Below, in pieces: positions 3,015-63,774 of a stretch of 64,000 nucleotides of DNA; position 1 is the stretch's first letter, and every line of letters starts with the position of its first letter. The position numbers and the translations under genes are program-made. A model generated the notes under the pieces. That model did no database searches and was not told the origin of the DNA. It was given only the letters and a program-made list of their open reading frames with translations. Source of the DNA: Nannochloropsis oceanica (lineage: Eukaryota; Sar; Eustigmatophyceae; Eustigmatales; Monodopsidaceae); contig CP038121.1 in assembly GCA_004519485.1 (NCBI GenBank), positions 558,001 through 622,000 of the forward strand, read 5' to 3'.

Positions 3015-4040
3015 TTATTTTGTCCTTTGATTTGTTTTGATTTGTTTGTCATGCATATCGCGCACCAACCCATCCACAAACGTCTTGAACTCGGTGAGCG
3101 GCCGACCTCCAAGTAGTCGCAGGCACTCGGTCGCGCTTTCGGAGTCCTGCACATCGAAACCTCCCTGTCGTAGAAACGTCCATAAGCCTCGATAGTCCTC
3201 CTGGGCGGGTAAGGCGACCTCTTGATATATCACCGACGTGTCTGCATCCATTTCTCTGCCTCCGCTTCCGTCGTGTCTTGCCCCCAAGCATAGTCCAACA
3301 ATACGACAGAGATCGGGTGCACTGAGGGTATTAGAAGCAGGGCCCACCACGTCCACAGCACGAAAGATGTGCTGTAGCTTCCTTCCGCCTTGCGAGAATC
3401 GCAAATGCTCGTTTATGATGGCGGCTGCCACTCTTCCTATGTCTTCACATGCTACCCAATTCACTCGCGCCTCGTGCCCTAGCGGACTGCTGATTTTTCG
3501 GCCACCGTCACGCAAAGTAGGCCAGTCAAACGCCTCAAAATTAGAAAAGAAAGATGTGGGGCGGAGCGACACAAGCGGGATACCCTTGTCTTGGAAAGCA
3601 GCCTCGCCAGCGCGGTGGGCCTCCCCAAGGGGGCCTTGGCTGTGTTGGCCGTCGATGCCGTAGGACGACAGCTTGACAACGAGCGGAATGACCTCCCCAT
3701 ACTCCTCGGCATGTTTCATGCAATCTGCCACGGCTTCGGCAACAGTTTTTTGGCACGCGATCATGTCCGCGGACGCCAAGACTTGAGGCAAAGTTAGTAC
3801 TATGACACTATACCCGGTCAGGGCCGTCGCAAGCACGGCTGCATCGGACACCGTCATGTCCAACTCCGTCAAGCTCAACTGAGACAAAGCGGGAGAGACG
3901 GAGGCCAGCAGCGCTTTTGCACCCTCGGAACTGACGTCTCGAGTTGTTGCCACGACTTGGGGACCGTCTGGAGTGGTTAGCAGCGCCCTCACGATGTGCT
4001 TTCCCACATTCCCCGTCGCCCCGAGCACCACGACGCTCAT
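3015..4040 (-). CDS. NmrA-like NAD(P)-binding oxidoreductase
   Basis: This is an intronless gene of 341 residues. It opens with MSVVVLGATGNVGKHIV, a beta strand followed by the glycine-rich GxxGxxG dinucleotide loop of atypical short-chain dehydrogenases. Later features fit the NmrA/SDR5 group: VVATTRD after the second strand, KLSSYGIDG in the place of the usual serine strand, and SLRPTSFFSNF, which is typical of the substrate-side helix. Members of the family bind NADP(H) and act as quinone reductases, isoflavone-type reductases or redox sensors. The substrate cannot be told. An in-frame ATG exists at 4157, but the start at 4040 puts the first beta strand at the N-terminus as usual. It faces the gene at 4276 across about 235 bp, a likely shared promoter. 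Confidence 0.75.
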   Translation of the reverse strand: MSVVVLGATGNVGKHIVRALLTTPDGPQVVATTRDVSSEGAKALLASVSPALSQLSLTELDMTVSDAAVLATALTGYSVIVLTLPQVLASADMIACQKTVAEAVADCMKHAEEYGEVIPLVVKLSSYGIDGQHSQGPLGEAHRAGEAAFQDKGIPLVSLRPTSFFSNFEAFDWPTLRDGGRKISSPLGHEARVNWVACEDIGRVAAAIINEHLRFSQGGRKLQHIFRAVDVVGPASNTLSAPDLCRIVGLCLGARHDGSGGREMDADTSVIYQEVALPAQEDYRGLWTFLRQGGFDVQDSESATECLRLLGGRPLTEFKTFVDGLVRDMHDKQIKTNQRTK

Positions 4041-4275
4041 CGCTTGCTCTGCGACCTGTTTTTTCTTTGCGTTTTTTGAAATGTACAGGGATGTAAGATC
4101 CGCTAAACGCATGCTATGATACATGTACGTAGCACACCATATGTCCAAACCACACATATAGCCCCTGCCTCACAACCCAGGGAGCCGACGAAGAATTGAC
4201 ATGCAACGGTTTTTGTGCTTACCGCGCGCTCACACTCCCCACAATCTCAGGACAGTCAAGGCAAGGGATCGCGCC
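4041..4275. promoter_or_regulatory. divergent promoter region between NmrA-like gene and presequence protein gene
   Basis: The two genes are transcribed away from each other with about 235 bp between the preferred start codons. No specific promoter element is recognised; the call follows from layout only. Confidence 0.4.
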
Positions 4276-27843: not shown

Positions 27844-29829
27844 TCTATCCAAATCGTTCTCTTGTCTACTCTACTGCGGATGCTGCCGAGGAATGAAGGC
27901 AGTCCCCTTATCGCAGGCGTGTCGAGGCGGACGTGTTAGGGAGTTGATGCGCGCCGGCTTGTGAGTGGCCAGCTAGACCCTTTCTCCTCTTTCCGTCTCT
28001 TGTATCGCTCTGTGTCGATGGTTATGGTAGGTGCAATAGTTGAAATGTGTCAGTTTTGTGGCAATGCAAGCTGCCAGCAAGCCCGCGCATGGAGGACGGG
28101 CTAAGACATCAAGCGTGGCTCTCTCCCAAAATCGTGTCGAGTTCGACCGTGCCCTTGCTTTCGGTGCCAGTCGCGGCTCTGATGGGTGCACGACCGGCTG
28201 TCGTGTCATGTCTGAGAACGAGGGGAAGGGCGGCCCAGTTTAAGGAAAGAGGGCAGCCACTATCAGTAGGATAGAGGCGGCGTGGCCTGAAAAGAAGGAA
28301 GAAGCACAACAACAACGACAAGCGTGCGGCTGCAGCGCTGCAGGCAACATCATGAGCAGCAGCTTTAAGTCGGGCACTAAATCCCACGGCATATTGCTGG
28401 GGTCAGGCACGCGCGCTTGACCCTGAGCTGAAAACGCACACCCTTCACTTCAAGGGAAAGAAAGCCACGACACACCAATCGGAGTAAGAGAAAAAAGGAA
28501 AAGTAGGGAGAGAGTATCCTGGCGTGTCACGCGGAGGCTTTGAGATTACACACGGGGCCTGCAGGGTTCCAATAAAGATGCATGGACATATTTATACTTC
28601 CTGTAATGTACATAACAAGGCAGGGCACCAGGTAAAGCTGCCTTGAGGCCCCTTCAGGCAAGACTTGCACTCGATCACGATCGATCCAAATTTGTGACAC
28701 CACTTTGAAGTGCCACGGTGCTCGCTTCACCTTGCTTTTTCTTCAGGAGCGTGGCGTTGTTCGTTGTTGGAAGGGCGTCGTTTTCACCTAAACTTGTTGT
28801 TGAGACGGCTGTCTCTCTCGTATTATTTCCCCGTCATCACAACCACTGCACGCAGCCCAGATAGTGGTCGCCCTTACTTTTTCTTTCATTGTCCTCCGAG
28901 CCAAGCCTGCTGATTCAAGTCCACGACACACATTGCACATAATGCAAACAACGCAGTTACGGCGGCACGAGCAGCCAATCGGTACATGACAGAATCATGT
29001 TGAAGCTTAGTCGATGCTTGGCTCTAGATATGTGGTATAATCGTGGGGGAGAAATGCTGTGCAGCATATAAAATGAAGCCTCTTACGAGGAATCCGCCCC
29101 TTCCTCCCCCGCCACTCCTCGGGCAAAAGTGACCCCATGAGAGTCATTCTCTTTTTATTGTGTCATCCGTCTTTTGAAAATGCTCATCAACTTGCTCCGT
29201 TCGCTCTTAAGGCAGATGATTCACTGAAGTTTGAGAGGGGAAGTCAGCACTGACTAAGCCACATGTCACCCAGATAGCACCCACAGATTAAATACATGCG
29301 TGCATTGCAATTTTTGTTCTACAATATTTTGGTCGGAAATGATTGAGTTGGAGCCCGACGGACAGCTCACCTCACATAAGCAGCAGGATGAAAACGGACT
29401 AAGTCATTTTTTCTACACGTCGGGACTGACTTTGTGGCTCACTAGTAGGAGATTAAGTCGTAAGCCGTTCAAAAGCTATCCATAAGGTGGAAAGAAGAGC
29501 TTGGAACGAACTAATCATTCCAAGCTGATTGCCGTTGATCCGATTATCCAATTCTTCAGTGCTGTCGGGACGTTTGTGCTGGGACATGAAACACCAAAAT
29601 AATCCCATCCCGTCAAACTCCAGACTTGTGAGGCATGGCGCAATTCAATGGCCTCCAAGCCCCGCAAAGTACTTGAACCCATTTCAGAGTTAGAAACGTC
29701 GGTCAATTTACTCATGCATCACTTCATAAGTTGCGTGGAGAAAGCGCTGACCGAAAGTTGCATTTGCCCCTTTCTCACTCACTTTTGCGGTGGCAGTGAC
29801 TAGTTCTTTTTGCCGTTCCTACATCCCTC
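27844..29829. other. 2-kb gene-poor stretch
   Basis: The left end is the upstream region of the CHI-like gene. Short open frames at 28040-28274, 28710-28913, 29300-29485 and 29515-29715 have no recognised motif and no splice partners. I see no tRNA-like cloverleaf and call no gene. Confidence 0.4.
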
Positions 29830-30215
29830 TAGAACTATTGCATGCAACCTGCGTCCTCTAGGACTTGCATACGAGGGGGAGCCTTCCAACAATAAATTGT
29901 TGCCTATTCACCCCTTATTCATTGTCCGAGTTTTACTAGCGACTTTGACAGTTTTTTTTACCAGGCAAAGTCCCCGGACGGCCCACACAGGGCCAGGAGG
30001 AGGGGGGGAAGGAGGATAAAAGAGGAGGTCAGCGGGAACGCTACACATAGAGTGTCCGCATATCTTGCCGCGGTTGACCAAACCGAAGATCATGGGGACG
30101 AGCTTCCCCACGGACCATACTCGTGTACACCCGTAGGATGTTACGTGCCCCATTGCCGTCCCGAGACACAAAGTGTTCAAAGGTGTCACACCAACAAAGT
30201 CCTCGGATGGCCCGC
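29830..30215 (-). mobile_element. Fanzor/TnpB relic, copy B (C-terminal end plus 3' flank)
   Basis: Read on the minus strand, 30215 to 30041 encodes the end of a TnpB/Fanzor-type RNA-guided nuclease: RGLCWCDT, then VSRDGNGARNILRVY, the RuvC-III motif whose Asp is the third catalytic acid, then a short basic tail and a stop at 30041-30043. The matching zinc-finger cysteine of copy A (CDTC) is Phe here. Similarity to copy A (62659-63062) continues for about 210 bases past the stop, ending at TTCTA near 29830. Everything upstream of the RGL motif is replaced by a polypyrimidine tract, so only the 3' end of the element survives. Confidence 0.7.
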
Positions 30216-30625
30216 CCATGACCTCCTCCTCTGCCTCGTCCTCGTCCTCCTCCGCCTCCTCCTCCTCTGCTTCCACCGCCTCCGCCCCCTCCTCCTCCTC
30301 CGCCTCCTCCGCCTCCGCCTCCTCCTCCCCTTTCCCTTCATTCTCCTCCCCCTTTTCCTCCTCCACCTTCCCCCCCTCCTCCTCCTCTGCTTCAACCGCC
30401 TCCTCCTCCTCCTCCCCTTCTCCTTCCACCCCCTCCTCGTCTCCCTCCTCCTCCCCCTCCTCCTCCTTCCCCTTCTTCTTCTTCCTCTTCCTCCTCTCCT
30501 TCTTCTTCTTCCTCTTCTTTTTCTTCTTCTTCTTCCTCTTCCTCTTCTTCTTCTTCCTCTTTTTCTTCTTCCTCTTTTTCTTCTTCTTCTTGTTTGTCTC
30601 TTCTTCCTCTTCTTCCTCTCCTCCT

Positions 30626-30657
<32 letters not shown>

Positions 30658-30700
30658 TTCTCCTCCTCCTTCTCGTCCTCCTCCTCCCCCTCTTGCTCCT
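30216..30700 (+). repeat. 480-base polypyrimidine tract, (CTC/CTT)n
   Basis: From about 30216 to 30700 the plus strand is almost only C and T, mostly TCC, CCT, CTT and TTC triplets with very few purines. It abuts the broken 5' edge of the Fanzor relic. All frames through it code only Ser/Leu/Phe/Pro or Glu/Lys/Arg runs, so I do not treat it as coding. Confidence 0.85.
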
Positions 30701-31365
30701 CTGCCGCAGCGACTTCTGGAGACATAGCAAAGAAAAACGTCATGACGCCAGTCTCGTCCCCTTCTTCCATTTCCTCCTGCTCCGATGACGATTCCTCGTC
30801 GACTGACACCGAAGCCTCTACGCAGCAGCCCTCAAAGGGATAGTACTCCGCCTGCCACGCATGCCACCAAGAAGCCGACCCACTCGTCCTCTGTGTCCTC
30901 CTCGTCCCTGGCCTCTACGACCACATCGACGTGGACAGGTCACCCAGAAGCTGTTTACTTCCCTCATTCAAAATGCCGTGCACCCTCTTGACATGCGTTG
31001 ATACGTGCAATCAGGAAGCCCAACCGGAGAAAGCGCTTGCACAACCTCAGCATATTAGCTGACGCCTTAGATATATCTCATCACAATATCAAAACCCATC
31101 CTGAGGGAGCTACCTCTCTTTCCATGAGCTTCGAGAGCCTCAACGTGAGAGACGAGGGTAGTTTAAGGGGAGAGTTCATGTCGGTGATCCGATATGCGAT
31201 TGTGGCCACCAACTGAAAAACAACCCGGAAGTGCGCGCCCGTCCCCTGTATTGGCTTTCAATTAATTCTCACGTCTTTTCCGCTCTCATTCGCCTTCAGG
31301 TCAAATACAATCAAGGCGGGCAGTGCATCCGCGTATATAGAGACCGCCAGCACAAGCCACGCATT
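30701..31365. other. region upstream of the mitochondrial carrier, no gene called
   Basis: Open stretches (for example 30998-31216, coding SILADALDISHHNIKTHPEG) are short and unmatched. The part from about 31220 is the likely 5' region of the carrier gene. Confidence 0.35.
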
Positions 31366-47332: not shown

Positions 47333-50300
47333 ATGCAGTGCACCATGACCGGCCGCATAGGGCGGCAAATTTCTCTTTTATTTCTTTTCGTCCTTGCTGG
47401 CGTAGCCCGTGCCTTCTTCTTGGGCGGGCACAAGGCAACTCCAGCAGCAATTGGGGGAGGAGGTTTCTTGCCATCCTCAGGGCCTGTTCAGGCATGGACC
47501 ACCACCTCCCTGTCCTCCTCTGCCGTATACACCAGCAGCTCGTTGTACGCCGCAGTGGGAAGCGTGATGGAGAAGCCCGTCAAGATTCCTGAGACGGACA
47601 GCGGGGAGAACAAGAAGGTCTTTGAGCGGCTCTTTGTCCAACTCAGCAAGGAAACGAGCGAGGTAGGTTTTCCGGCCTCTATGTATGTGATATGTGAGGT
47701 GATTTGATCTTGCTGTCACTACGCGTGTCTCATTTTTCTGTCTTCCTTGTCCCCCATGGCCGCTTTGTTGATCGACCTTTCCGCCTATTTCTCAACTTAA
47801 TCCATCACCCCCCCCCCCCCCACCCCTATCCCCTCTCCTGCCTTCCTCCCTTATCAGATCCCCCAAGCTTCTCTCGACGAGGCTCTGGCCCTGGCTGCCC
47901 GCGGTCGTAGCTGGAGCCGTGCCATGAAACTATTGCGGTTGCCGACAGCAAGGCCCACAAGAGATCAGTACCACATGGCGATCGTGGCGTGTAAACGGGC
48001 GCAGCACAAATGGTAGGGAGGGAGGAAGGGAGGGAGGGAGGGAGGGAGGGAGGAAGGGAGGATGGAGGGAGATGGACGCAGTCAATTAACCTGAGCATAT
48101 TTCTCTCCTGCTTTACATATCTTAATTCACATGTCTCCTCCCCTCCTTTCCTCCCCTCCCTCCCTCCCTTTCTTTCCCCCCCCAGGCGCCAAGCCCTGGA
48201 GCTGATCGACGAGGCCGTGGCCCGGGGTCTGCAGCCCAACGCCACCTCCTTCCAAGAGGTCATGTCCATCTGCGCTGTCGCCCAGCGCCCCAAGGAAGCC
48301 GTCTCCGTCCTGGACCGGATGGGGAAGGCGGGGGTGAACGCCGGCCTCTCGAGCTACAACATCGCCGTGTCGGCGCTCGCTCATCAGGGCCAGTGGAAGA
48401 AGGCTCTCAAGATCATCACCTACATGGAGAAGCAGGCCGTGTGGCCCGACACCAAGACCTACACCTCCGCAATGGAAGCCTGCGCCAAGGCCGGCGAGTG
48501 GCAACGGGCTCTGCTTCTGCTAGAGGAGATGGTGGCGCAGAAGGGGGTCCCTCCCTCCACCCCTACCTACAACGCCGCCATGCGCGCGTGTGTAGTGGGC
48601 GGACAGGACGACCGAGCCCTGGCCTTCCTGGACGAGATGCTGCGAAAAGGCGTGGGGGTGGACGAGGACTCCTTCGGCATCGCCATCAAGGCCTGCGAGG
48701 GGGCCAAGAGGAAGGACAAGGCGCTCGAGCTCTGGCAGGAGGAGATGCCCCGTCAATCTCTCCCTCCTTCCCTCCCTCCCCTCGAGGCCCTTCTCCGCGT
48801 GCTGGTCAAGACGGAGAGGGAAGTGGAGTCCTGGCCGGCGGCCTGTGCGATCATTGATGCCCTCCCTCCCTCGTCCCCGTCCTCCTCCTCGCCCTCCCTC
48901 ACCCAAGCAGACGGTGCCATGGCCCTGGTCAGGGCGGCGAGAAGCTTGCAGTTGCCGGCGGAAGGACCGGGGGAAGAAGGGGTGGTTGGGAAGTATGTGG
49001 TTGGAAAGCTATTGGCAGCAGGGAGGGTGGGGGAAGCGGTGCGCCTGTGCTCGGAGGAGGACCGACTGGGCTTCGCGGTCATGAGGGAGGGAGGCAGGGA
49101 GGGGGGGAGCGAGGAGAGCGTGGCGTGTTTGGGGGTGTTGTTGCAGTGGAGGGAGGCGGTGAGGATGAGACAGGGGGCGGGGCCGTGCGCGAAACCGGAC
49201 CTGGTGCGAACGAGGCTGGAAATGGAGATGAAGGAGTCGGGGGTGCTGGGGAAGGAGGACGAGGAGATGAACGCCGTCAAGGCCCTGTGCGAGGACGGGG
49301 AGCTGGACGCGGCGATCGAGAGGATCCGGAGTAAGGGCGGCAAGCCCAGGCCGAGCGTGGTGAACTTGGCCATGGAATACGCCGTCGTCATCTTCAAGGA
49401 CGTGGCCGGTGCGTCTGCCTCTCCCTTTGATGTCGTGATTATTTTGAGTGAATCTGTGTGTATGAGTGTGTGTTTGAGTGTTTTCATTCATAATTTTTTC
49501 CTTCCTTATGTCCTTTAAAAAGGCTCTTTTATGTCATGCGCACCTCTTCCCTCCCTCGCTCTCTCCTGCCCAATTTCCCTTCCCCCCTCTCTTCCTCGCC
49601 CTCCAGAAAGATACAAATATATAATACGAAACATTCACTCATCTCTTCTCTCTTCCTCTCCCTCCCTCCTTCTCGCCAGCTGCCAAGAAGATTTTGGAAA
49701 TCCCGGGGGCCGGCTCCCGTCCCTTCTACAACAGGGCCTTGCGGGTCGCGGCGGCGGCCAAGCGTTGGGGAACGGTGGCCTCGCTGCAGAAGAAAATGAC
49801 AATGAATGGGATTGTGTCCGATGCCGAGACGTTCCTGCAGCTGATTGTGGGAAGTACTGAGGCTGAGAGCTTGACGCGGGTGCAGAGGTAAAAAGAGAGG
49901 GAGGGAAGGAATGGAAGGAAGGGAGGGAGGGAGGGAAAGGAGGGACCTCGTTTTTATGACCATAGTTTTTCATTGCTCCTCCCTCGTATATCTCTCTCCT
50001 CTCTCTTTTTTCACAGATACCACCACCAAATGGAAAAGGAGGGCTTTGCCACCGAGCCCGCCCATGCCGTGGCCCTTATGGCCTTCTACAACGACAAGCG
50101 CAAGTACTCCCTCTCCCTGGCCGTGTTCCAGGAGCAGGTAGCGAGGAACAGCGAGGCAGGGGGGGAGCAGCGGGAGGAGATGACGAGGCTGGCGCTGGAG
50201 GCATGTGCCATAGGGGGCCTGTGGGAGGAAGTCCAGGAGATCGCCGCAGCCGCACGTCTGTCGGTAGAGGAGGATGCCGCAGCCCGCACGGCGCTGTTGG

Positions 50301-62658: not shown

Positions 62659-63062
62659 ACATAAATACGCATATTGGTGGCAGGTAAGGGGACTGTACTG
62701 GTGTGACACCTGTGAACAATTCGTGTCCCGGGACGGCAATGGGGCACGTAACATCCTGCGGATATACAGAAGTATGGTCCGTGGAGAAGCTCGTCGCCAT
62801 GATATTCGGTTTGGCCAACCGCGGCAGGATATGCGGACACTGTTTGTGTAGCCTCCCCGCAGACCTCCTCTTTTATCCCCCTCACCCTTCTCCTCCTGGC
62901 CCTGTTTGGGCCGTCCGGGGACTTTGCTTGATGAAAATCCTGTCAAAGTCGCAGTAGAAAAATCGGACGAGAATAAGGGATGAATAGGCAACAATTTAAT
63001 GTTGGAAGGCTCCCCCTTGTATGCAAGTCCTAGAAGACGTCAGGTTGCATGCAATAGTTCTA
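62659..63062 (+). mobile_element. Fanzor/TnpB relic, copy A (C-terminal end plus conserved 3' flank)
   Basis: From 62659 to the TAG at 62849-62851 the plus strand encodes KYAYWWQVRGLYWCDTCEQF and then VSRDGNGARNILRIYRSMVR. WCDTC is the second half of the zinc finger and RDGNGARNI the RuvC-III motif of TnpB/Fanzor nucleases, followed by a short basic tail. A stop just upstream and the lack of RuvC-I and -II show that only the 3' end of the gene remains here. The flank after the stop (62852-63062) is shared with copy B (29830-30215, opposite strand) and ends at TTCTA in both. In this class the guide RNA scaffold lies at that place, overlapping the gene's 3' end. Confidence 0.75.
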
Positions 63063-63774
63063 TAAAAAAGAAGTAAACTGGGTTTGTGGTTACAATAATC
63101 ATGTAACGAAGTGGACATGCCTTTTCTGGATAGGATGGCTTCGCTGGCGTTGAAAACATTGAGGACCGGCTGAGGGAGACCGACCGCAGACACGGGGTAT
63201 TTCCAATGGTCACTCCGAACTCAATTCCCGCTGTGAATCCTCCCACATCCACCACCCTAAATTCTCAGTGGTTAAGTTTGAAATCGATCAAGTAGACTCA
63301 CAAAAGAGAATGTTAAAATAGAGAGTCGACAGCAAAATGCTTCATATCATTCAAGTTGTCGTGATTCCAATTGTTATGTACATGAAGGAAATGATTGGTT
63401 AAATAATTAAAAAATAAATAAAAATTGGTTGCGCTTCTTTTCCGTTTCTGGCGCTCTCACCTTGTCCTTGTTCTTGCTTCCTCTTGACGCGTTGACCGTG
63501 ACTGAGTGAGCTCACGTCTACGGCTGCCCAGGGCATAGAAGCACATGGGTATATTCATGTAGCACCTCCTATCCAGTCTTCCTTCATTGGTGAGATAGAG
63601 AGGTTGCCGCAAGAGCTGGAGAGTCGGCAGAGCGCATCATCGGGCTAAGGACTCACTCTCCTCCCCCATCCTTGTATACACATTACAGACACAAACCCAG
63701 ATACAACGACGCATCCCTCCACGTCCAGGGATTATAGAGGAATCAAGCGCTGAGTCAAGCGCGCGGGCGCGGTC
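63063..63774. other. intergenic, AT-richer, no gene recognised
   Basis: 700 bases right of the Fanzor relic, including an A/T-rich part at 63290-63430. The right end is the probable promoter and leader of the TMEM184-like gene. Confidence 0.4.

Follow-up and report, generated by a model that had tools for sequence, protein, structure and literature searches.

Two remnants of a Fanzor-type gene in a 64,000-nucleotide stretch of the Nannochloropsis oceanica genome (contig CP038121.1, positions 558,001 to 622,000; hereafter the window) are best explained as defunct copies, truncated at the 5' side, of a Fanzor1-type element. The element is scattered through the algal genome in many copies, usually with the tail kept and the head lost. 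Fanzor proteins are relatives of CRISPR-type DNA cutters, and the family bears on why eukaryotic transposons carry them.

The two relics and the common 3' end of the family

A search of the window placed matches to the element at two sites only, and re-reading of the frames confirmed that they lie in opposite orientation. Copy A (62690 to 63073, + strand) begins at 62690 rather than 62659 by DNA similarity in 36 of 42 match rows, from the best 40 of 174 candidates scored. Its C-terminal coding remnant (62690 to 62851) carries the second half of a zinc ribbon (WCDTC) and RuvC-III (RDGNGARNI) and belongs to a reading frame at 62660 to 62851, whose peptide runs through RGLYWCDTCEQFVSRDGNGARNILRIYRSMVRGEARRHDIRFGQPRQDMRTLFV to a TAG stop codon at 62849 to 62851. 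The 3' non-coding end, with predicted hairpins, occupies 62852 to 63073 and closes on the tail AAAAAAGAAG, followed by TA at 63074 to 63075.

Copy B, on the - strand, is longer than first stated and covers 29803 to 30701. It includes a GGA-repeat (polypurine) tract at 30224 to 30701 that belongs to the element and corresponds to the Gly-rich zinc-ribbon insert of better copies, the in-frame bridge being seen in locus L020. The coding remnant (GHGRAIRGLCWCDTFEHFVSRDGNGARNI..., 30041 to 30223; frame 30044 to 30223, stop codon 30041 to 30043) yields a peptide near that of copy A, but with WCDTF, the second Cys of WCDTC being Phe. The 3' non-coding end, again with predicted hairpins, lies at 29803 to 30040; the element ends in AAAAAGAAC at 29803 and is followed by TA. 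Copy B matches the copy on contig C9 at 81% over 927 columns. In translation both relics encode WCDTC or WCDTF through RDGNGARNIL up to the stop codon, and both lack the 5' part of the gene, as the original prediction had it; truncation is common across the family.

Several other observations were made in the window. A direct repeat of about 20 bases lies at 30194 to 30213 and 29966 to 29984 (- strand) and is also present in other copies of the family; in a secondary alignment match, GGGCCATCCGAGGACTTTG of the coding part has a counterpart, GGGCCGTCCGGGGACTTTG, in the 3' non-coding end. Rfam matches in the window numbered zero. A PPR-repeat protein and an NmrA/NAD-binding protein are encoded at 48010 to 49515 (+) and 3018 to 4157 (-), respectively.

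Similarity between the relics had been said to continue past the stop codon and to end sharply at TTCTA. The continuation is borne out for both copies, to a fixed 3' end about 235 bases beyond the stop. The TTCTA border was rejected, since other copies, among them copy B and nearly all those aligned, run farther. Copy A reads TTCTATAAAAAAGAAG|TAAACTGG, the bar marking the junction, with TTCTATAAAAAAGAAG|TA at 63058 to 63075; judged against L010 and L003 (GTTCTATAGGAGTGTAGGAACGGCAGAAAAAAGAAC), its tail would be the family tail minus about 20 bases, an internal deletion. The match between copies A and B would then break at TTCTA by accident, because copy A is without those bases there. Similarity stopping at the stop codon, which had been named beforehand as one of two outcomes that would tell against the claim, was not seen: all 42 match rows (best 40 of 174 candidates) run past it.

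In nearly all aligned copies the element end consists of TTCTAGAGRGATGTAGGAAC, a short variable stretch and AAAAGAAC (in some copies slightly altered), beyond which lie TA and unique flank, so that the common 3' end is ...AAAAGAAC|TA. A tail such as GATGTAGGAACGGCAAAAAGAAC is found in copy B and nearly all rows, copy A and L008 being the exceptions, and small variants of the last bases occur. The exact tail pattern has 55 occurrences in the genome, against none in a reversed control, and TA comes next in 53 of these. By comparison of coordinates by eye, 27 of the 55 are without a coding match nearby. The same tail on some other element was looked for in this group; all 13 places sampled of the 27 proved to be the Fanzor element, one of them (L090) with an internal deletion. 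The 12 tail-only copies that were measured are cut 32 to 276 bases from the end, and the breakpoints of L079 and L082 fall within one base of each other.

A chance resemblance or a lone pair of relics was rejected, the C-terminal protein having 109 matches at E<=10 (100 at E<=0.001) in the 29.26-Mb, 32-contig genome; in some cases a single copy accounts for two of these rows. On the viral contigs, 14 pattern stretches were found, none a relative of the relic protein. Judged by the overlap of L014 with the C9 copy, a complete element would probably measure some 4.6 kb. Paired copies were also observed. Tail-to-tail pairs lie at C11:850057-850753 (L005/L050) and C15:405361-405917; in L005 the two 3' ends stand about 16 to 18 bases (CTACCAAGAAGAAAGTAG) apart, as though one CTA...TAG site had been used on each of its strands. 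A head-to-head pair with both tails outward, at C27:183203-186657 (L056, L070), possibly represents a single event, with priming at each side of a break.

Coding region and assignment to Fanzor

Better copies code for an N-terminal part, a RuvC core and a zinc ribbon into which a Gly-rich tract, coded by GGA repeats, is inserted; the 3' non-coding end follows. A genome search for fuller copies, proposed as a check on the original prediction, found copies with RuvC-I and the same 3' end; among them, the gene of the C9 copy is broken and L020 is 5'-truncated. The C9 copy has an 887-residue open frame with IVAIDPGRVNLVTALD (RuvC-I; IVAIDPGRVN) and IIAYGAG...VPEHLTTKVHLDCGQRL, then some 300 Gly-rich residues from GGA repeats; the first N-terminal part is in another frame, and at least one stop lies between the long frame and GHGWAIRGLYWCDTC...RDGNGARNI. 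In L020, an insertion in its own right, a single open frame joins RuvC-I with RuvC-III through a Gly tract of about 60 residues; among the loci compared in this respect, no other has both motifs in one frame. The tract that splits the zinc ribbon ranges from about 60 to some 300 residues (L020, L053, L054, L062 and others), and in long copies a recurring island (GDPGRVGVGGVGAAGAATGGGG...PGEQAARALATIG) is found inside it.

The published definition of Fanzor comprises DPG in RuvC-I, a glutamate of the rearranged RuvC-II that precedes the first CxxC by six residues, and a second CxxC followed 4 to 8 residues on by the RuvC-III Asp. The first motif is present as IVAIDPGRVN in L020, L062, L067, L056, L068, L063 and L065 and as IVAIDPGGVN in L078; L077 has INPG, and RuvC-I is absent from the truncated copies A and B. 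A glutamate sits six residues before the first zinc-ligand pair, but the first Cys of that pair is replaced in every copy read, by His (L020, L062, L067, L056, L063, L077), Gln (L068) or Tyr (L078), and L063 has lost the second Cys as well. Spacing from the second CxxC to the RuvC-III Asp fits the definition, with WCDTC-EQFVSR-D in copy A and WCDTF in copy B.

Profile scores are low. The copy A relic matches PF07282 at E 0.05 with 14.2 bits (cut-off 26.3), its sole Pfam hit; family places also found by the protein search score 12 to 21 bits, and the cut-off is passed by five places of a second Fanzor family in the same genome. Placement of RDGNGARNI by profile, failure of which was the other outcome named beforehand, is thus weak rather than negative. 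The RuvC part gave no match to Pfam and NCBIfam models and only low-complexity or chance hits among solved structures; for the copy A relic, PDB yielded a TnpB-like protein at E 0.43 only. Because PF07282 scores fall under the cut-off, the assignment is by motif and gene order, and on that footing the family probably belongs to Fanzor/TnpB. The identity first proposed is therefore upheld by the motifs of the better copies and qualified by the replaced Cys and the relic's score.

The second family (L033-L039, on C1, C8, C4, C11 and C2) is more diverged, with an ordinary CSSCG zinc finger in some copies. A conserved non-coding stretch leads to a common 3' end of its own near GGTTAC, where five of the seven copies end together; neither the tail of the copy A/B family nor a clear target site duplication (TSD) was found in them.

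Truncation, target duplications and the mode of insertion

Junctions with a readable 5' breakpoint numbered 21, comprising 12 tail-only copies and L002, L006, L014, L020, L021, L026, L028, L030 and L067; L090 and copies A and B were left out. A direct repeat of at least 8 bases from the 3' junction recurs at the 5' breakpoint in 9 of the 21, against 1 of 420 mismatched left/right pairs; at 5 bases or more the figures are 10 of 21 and 17 of 420. The nine duplications, 8 to 15 bases long and at C|TA sites, are CTACTGTCGAACCCC, CTACTAGTACATCAT, CTATACGAGCAAC, CTAGGGATCGAAG, CTAACCCACATC, CTATTCATTC, CTAGTAGGC, CTAGTCAA and CTAGACCA. Their TA is fixed by the search string, which starts at the junction; the C before TA in the left copy, present in all nine, is not. 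Because L020, L021, L028, L030 and L067 were included once their repeats were already known, a fair count comes from the tail-only copies fetched blind, 4 of 12 (L079, L085, L087, L089). L084 has a 7-base repeat in the test, or 8 when overlap with the element is counted. No duplication of 8 bases or more is present in 12 of the 21 junctions, including 8 of the 12 tail-only copies, and matches of 8 to 9 bases far upstream of L042, L053 and L054 were not counted as TSDs. For the relics in the window, the longest exact candidate for copy B within 4 kb is 6 bases and far off, and the flanks of copy A share just TAA by eye. Extra bases are found at the 5' junctions of L020 (3), L087 (6) and L089 (2).

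Some copies without a duplication have 5' ends in common. L002 and L014 (1610 and 1665 bases, with internal deletions) share an identical first base (ACGATT) in unrelated flanks, and L006 and L026 share another 5' start; none has a duplication. From continuity with sequence upstream of the C9 gene, these 5' blocks may be the element's own ends, a claim that for L002 and L014 rests on that continuity and has a neighbouring repeat as its alternative.

With about an even chance of being right, the leading explanation is one-ended transposition, starting at the 3' end, through Helitron2-like machinery acting in trans. New copies would be written from the 3' end, which would be the recognition end, by a rolling-circle apparatus supplied from elsewhere, as proposed for the Fanzor1 elements CRe-1, CRe-2 and CRe-3 of Chlamydomonas reinhardtii (Bao and Jurka 2013; PMC3627910). 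In transcribed copies the same end could double as a Fanzor guide-RNA scaffold, the guide being read from the flank beyond AAC|TA. In favour of the rolling-circle explanation, 3'-anchored truncation goes with TSDs, and these are missing at copies with a common 5' end, as in CRe-1/2/3. Helitrons are reported to be the most abundant recognisable elements of Nannochloropsis.

Helitron hallmarks did not emerge from the analysis. The Rep domain PF14214 has 0 hits in the genome, in a search whose control gave no hit anywhere. An asymmetric terminal inverted repeat beyond chance was not found, the best being 6 bases in L002, which 269 of 500 shuffles equalled. A 6-bp hairpin folds at the 5' end of L002; on reading, L014 has lost one of its pairs. 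The element begins with A rather than T, the target C|TA is not T-rich, and the CTRR end, a Helitron feature, is absent. For want of end symmetry and a Rep domain, and because of the first base and the target, the family is not filed as a Helitron.

Five-prime truncation together with target duplications is also the mark of LINE and SINE retroposons, and the fixed 3' end, varied 5' ends and duplications are what first suggested target-primed reverse transcription. A Fanzor transcript would then be copied by a LINE-like enzyme in trans, since lost or missed, with the CUA at the RNA 3' end pairing to the nicked target. Besides the features just named, the identity of the target CTA with the element's last bases, which target-primed reverse transcription also predicts, the few extra bases at 5' junctions and the conserved 3' hairpins with their modest covariation (below) fit such copying. 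Full-length LINEs carry target duplications, however, unlike the copies with a common 5' end, and the family has no poly(A). The reverse transcriptase model RVT_1 gives three weak hits and none over the cut-off (control positive in three prokaryote genomes; no LINE-bearing control), the best of which (L092, C23:422700-423800) consists, by reading, of degenerate fragments resembling a Ty3/gypsy pol relic. The LINE endonuclease PF14529 has no hit, with a control positive in three prokaryotes, and the copia-type domain PF07727 none in the genome in a search without a working control. In the literature, LINEs in Nannochloropsis are absent by one account and amount to two copies of 659 bases in all by another. 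Retroposition is a minority possibility, less likely than not.

Improbable is the suggestion that the present family, CRe-1/2/3 and MCi-2, a Fanzor1 family of Mucor circinelloides, use one unrecognised 3'-anchored mechanism. A structured 3' end would be both copying start and guide scaffold, and a Fanzor cut at a short motif (here C|TA) would open the site, neither a LINE nor a Helitron enzyme having been found in the genome. In a separate rival explanation the Fanzor/guide-RNA complex would itself drive insertion, a cut at a CTA-adjacent site starting the copying and repair or another polymerase writing the element from its 3' end. The failure to detect a reverse transcriptase over the cut-off or a Rep domain agrees with such a role, as do the same habit in the Chlamydomonas Fanzor1 elements and the variable 5' ends of MCi-2, which is unclassified. 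On the other side, the negatives for PF14214 and PF07727 come from searches that lacked a working control, and few copies could code for a whole protein. Fanzor-driven insertion is decidedly improbable.

The conserved 3' end and known systems compared

The 3' non-coding end could alternatively be conserved chiefly as a guide-RNA scaffold, with spread secondary, akin to the SpuFz1 ghost loci that keep omega-RNA without protein. Between subfamilies (L077 and L078, respectively, against the C9 copy) local matches to it cover 179 of 232 bases at 71.5% and 140 at 75.7%, where the RuvC core stands at 72.1 and 70.3%, and over its whole length the figures are 71.0 and 69.6%, compared with 54-55% for shuffled sequence. 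Past the end of the C9 copy, the flank matches L077 over a single stretch of 19 bases and L078 not at all. The coding 3' end, however, is at least as conserved (81.1 and 77.4%). Within the family (35 copies, 20-base bins) conservation is 0.95-0.98 in the coding end and 0.90-0.98 in the non-coding end, falling to 0.74 in the last 18 positions; 3'-anchored truncated copying keeps both parts, so their roughly equal conservation needs no guide RNA.

A shared fold with compensatory changes had been proposed as a check. In a 40-pair structure, two-sided changes occur in 5 pairs compared with 1.7 in shuffles (2 of 500 as high) and in 1 to 4 when the structure is slid; since it was written from one family member, these counts lean towards that member. 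Against this modest covariation, further pair types number 21 versus 19.6 in shuffles (78 of 500), the folding energy is ordinary (z -1.2 and -1.8), and the structure is kept in 94.6% of cells versus 93.9 in shuffles. In alifold 4 of 43 pairs have a kept two-sided change, and the covariation term is just -0.2. The 37 rows of the structure alignment were mostly chosen for matching through to the 3' end and so cannot show how often similarity stops earlier.

Conservation between diverged subfamilies, together with the modest covariation, supports a functional 3' end. Being conserved and possibly structured, this end would suit a guide-RNA scaffold, a transposition end no less, or both; that the scaffold role is the chief one is very improbable. 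If the 3' end does make a guide RNA, AAC|TA rather than TTCTA is the junction where the guide would be expected to start. More generally, 3'-anchored copying is enough to produce conservation past a Fanzor stop codon, which taken alone is therefore no evidence for a guide RNA. Direct tests of how insertion works and of what the 3' end does are feasible in this alga, whose compact genome offers a defined target motif, clean target duplications and no fewer than 55 exact 3' ends.

The literature was compared through PMC3627910, PMC10432273, PMC10711439, PMC3499364, PMC8570151 and an engineering review (PMC13199778). An account of this family's insertions was not found in titles, abstract starts or passages among the matches listed for open-licence literature on Fanzor/TnpB and retrotransposition. 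A Fanzor from this species is already in print: a table line in PMC3627910 names NOc, a Fanzor1 of N. oceanica, which, from that line alone, is a candidate match to either the present family or L033-L039. The SpuFz1 ghost loci, in the passages of PMC10432273 that describe them, likewise keep the element end and the RNA region without the protein, but were aligned from inverted repeat to inverted repeat. In its description in PMC3627910, MCi-2 resembles the present family in its variable 5' regions, near-identical 3' part with Fanzor, lack of recognisable terminal inverted repeats and TSDs of 11-12 bases with a common start; it differs in that this start is ATAATT, and it occupies 11 loci.

The nearest parallel is with CRe-1/2/3. 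According to the passages on them in PMC3627910, their truncated copies mostly have TSDs of 7-19 bases that follow TTTT or similar, copies with the consensus 5' end have none, and a match of the element ends to verified Helitrons is the ground for filing them as non-autonomous Helitron2. These ends and the insertion after TTTT set CRe-1/2/3 apart from the present family, for which neither a Helitron partner nor end symmetry was found and which inserts at C|TA; in the present family, moreover, the zinc ribbon is interrupted by a GGA-coded tract. Shared are the Fanzor1 cargo, non-autonomy, 3' ends that are almost always intact, frequent 5' truncation with internal deletion, and the pattern of TSDs. 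With the Helitron class left unassigned, the element appears by this comparison to work as CRe-1/2/3 do, and the match in habit between the two is close.
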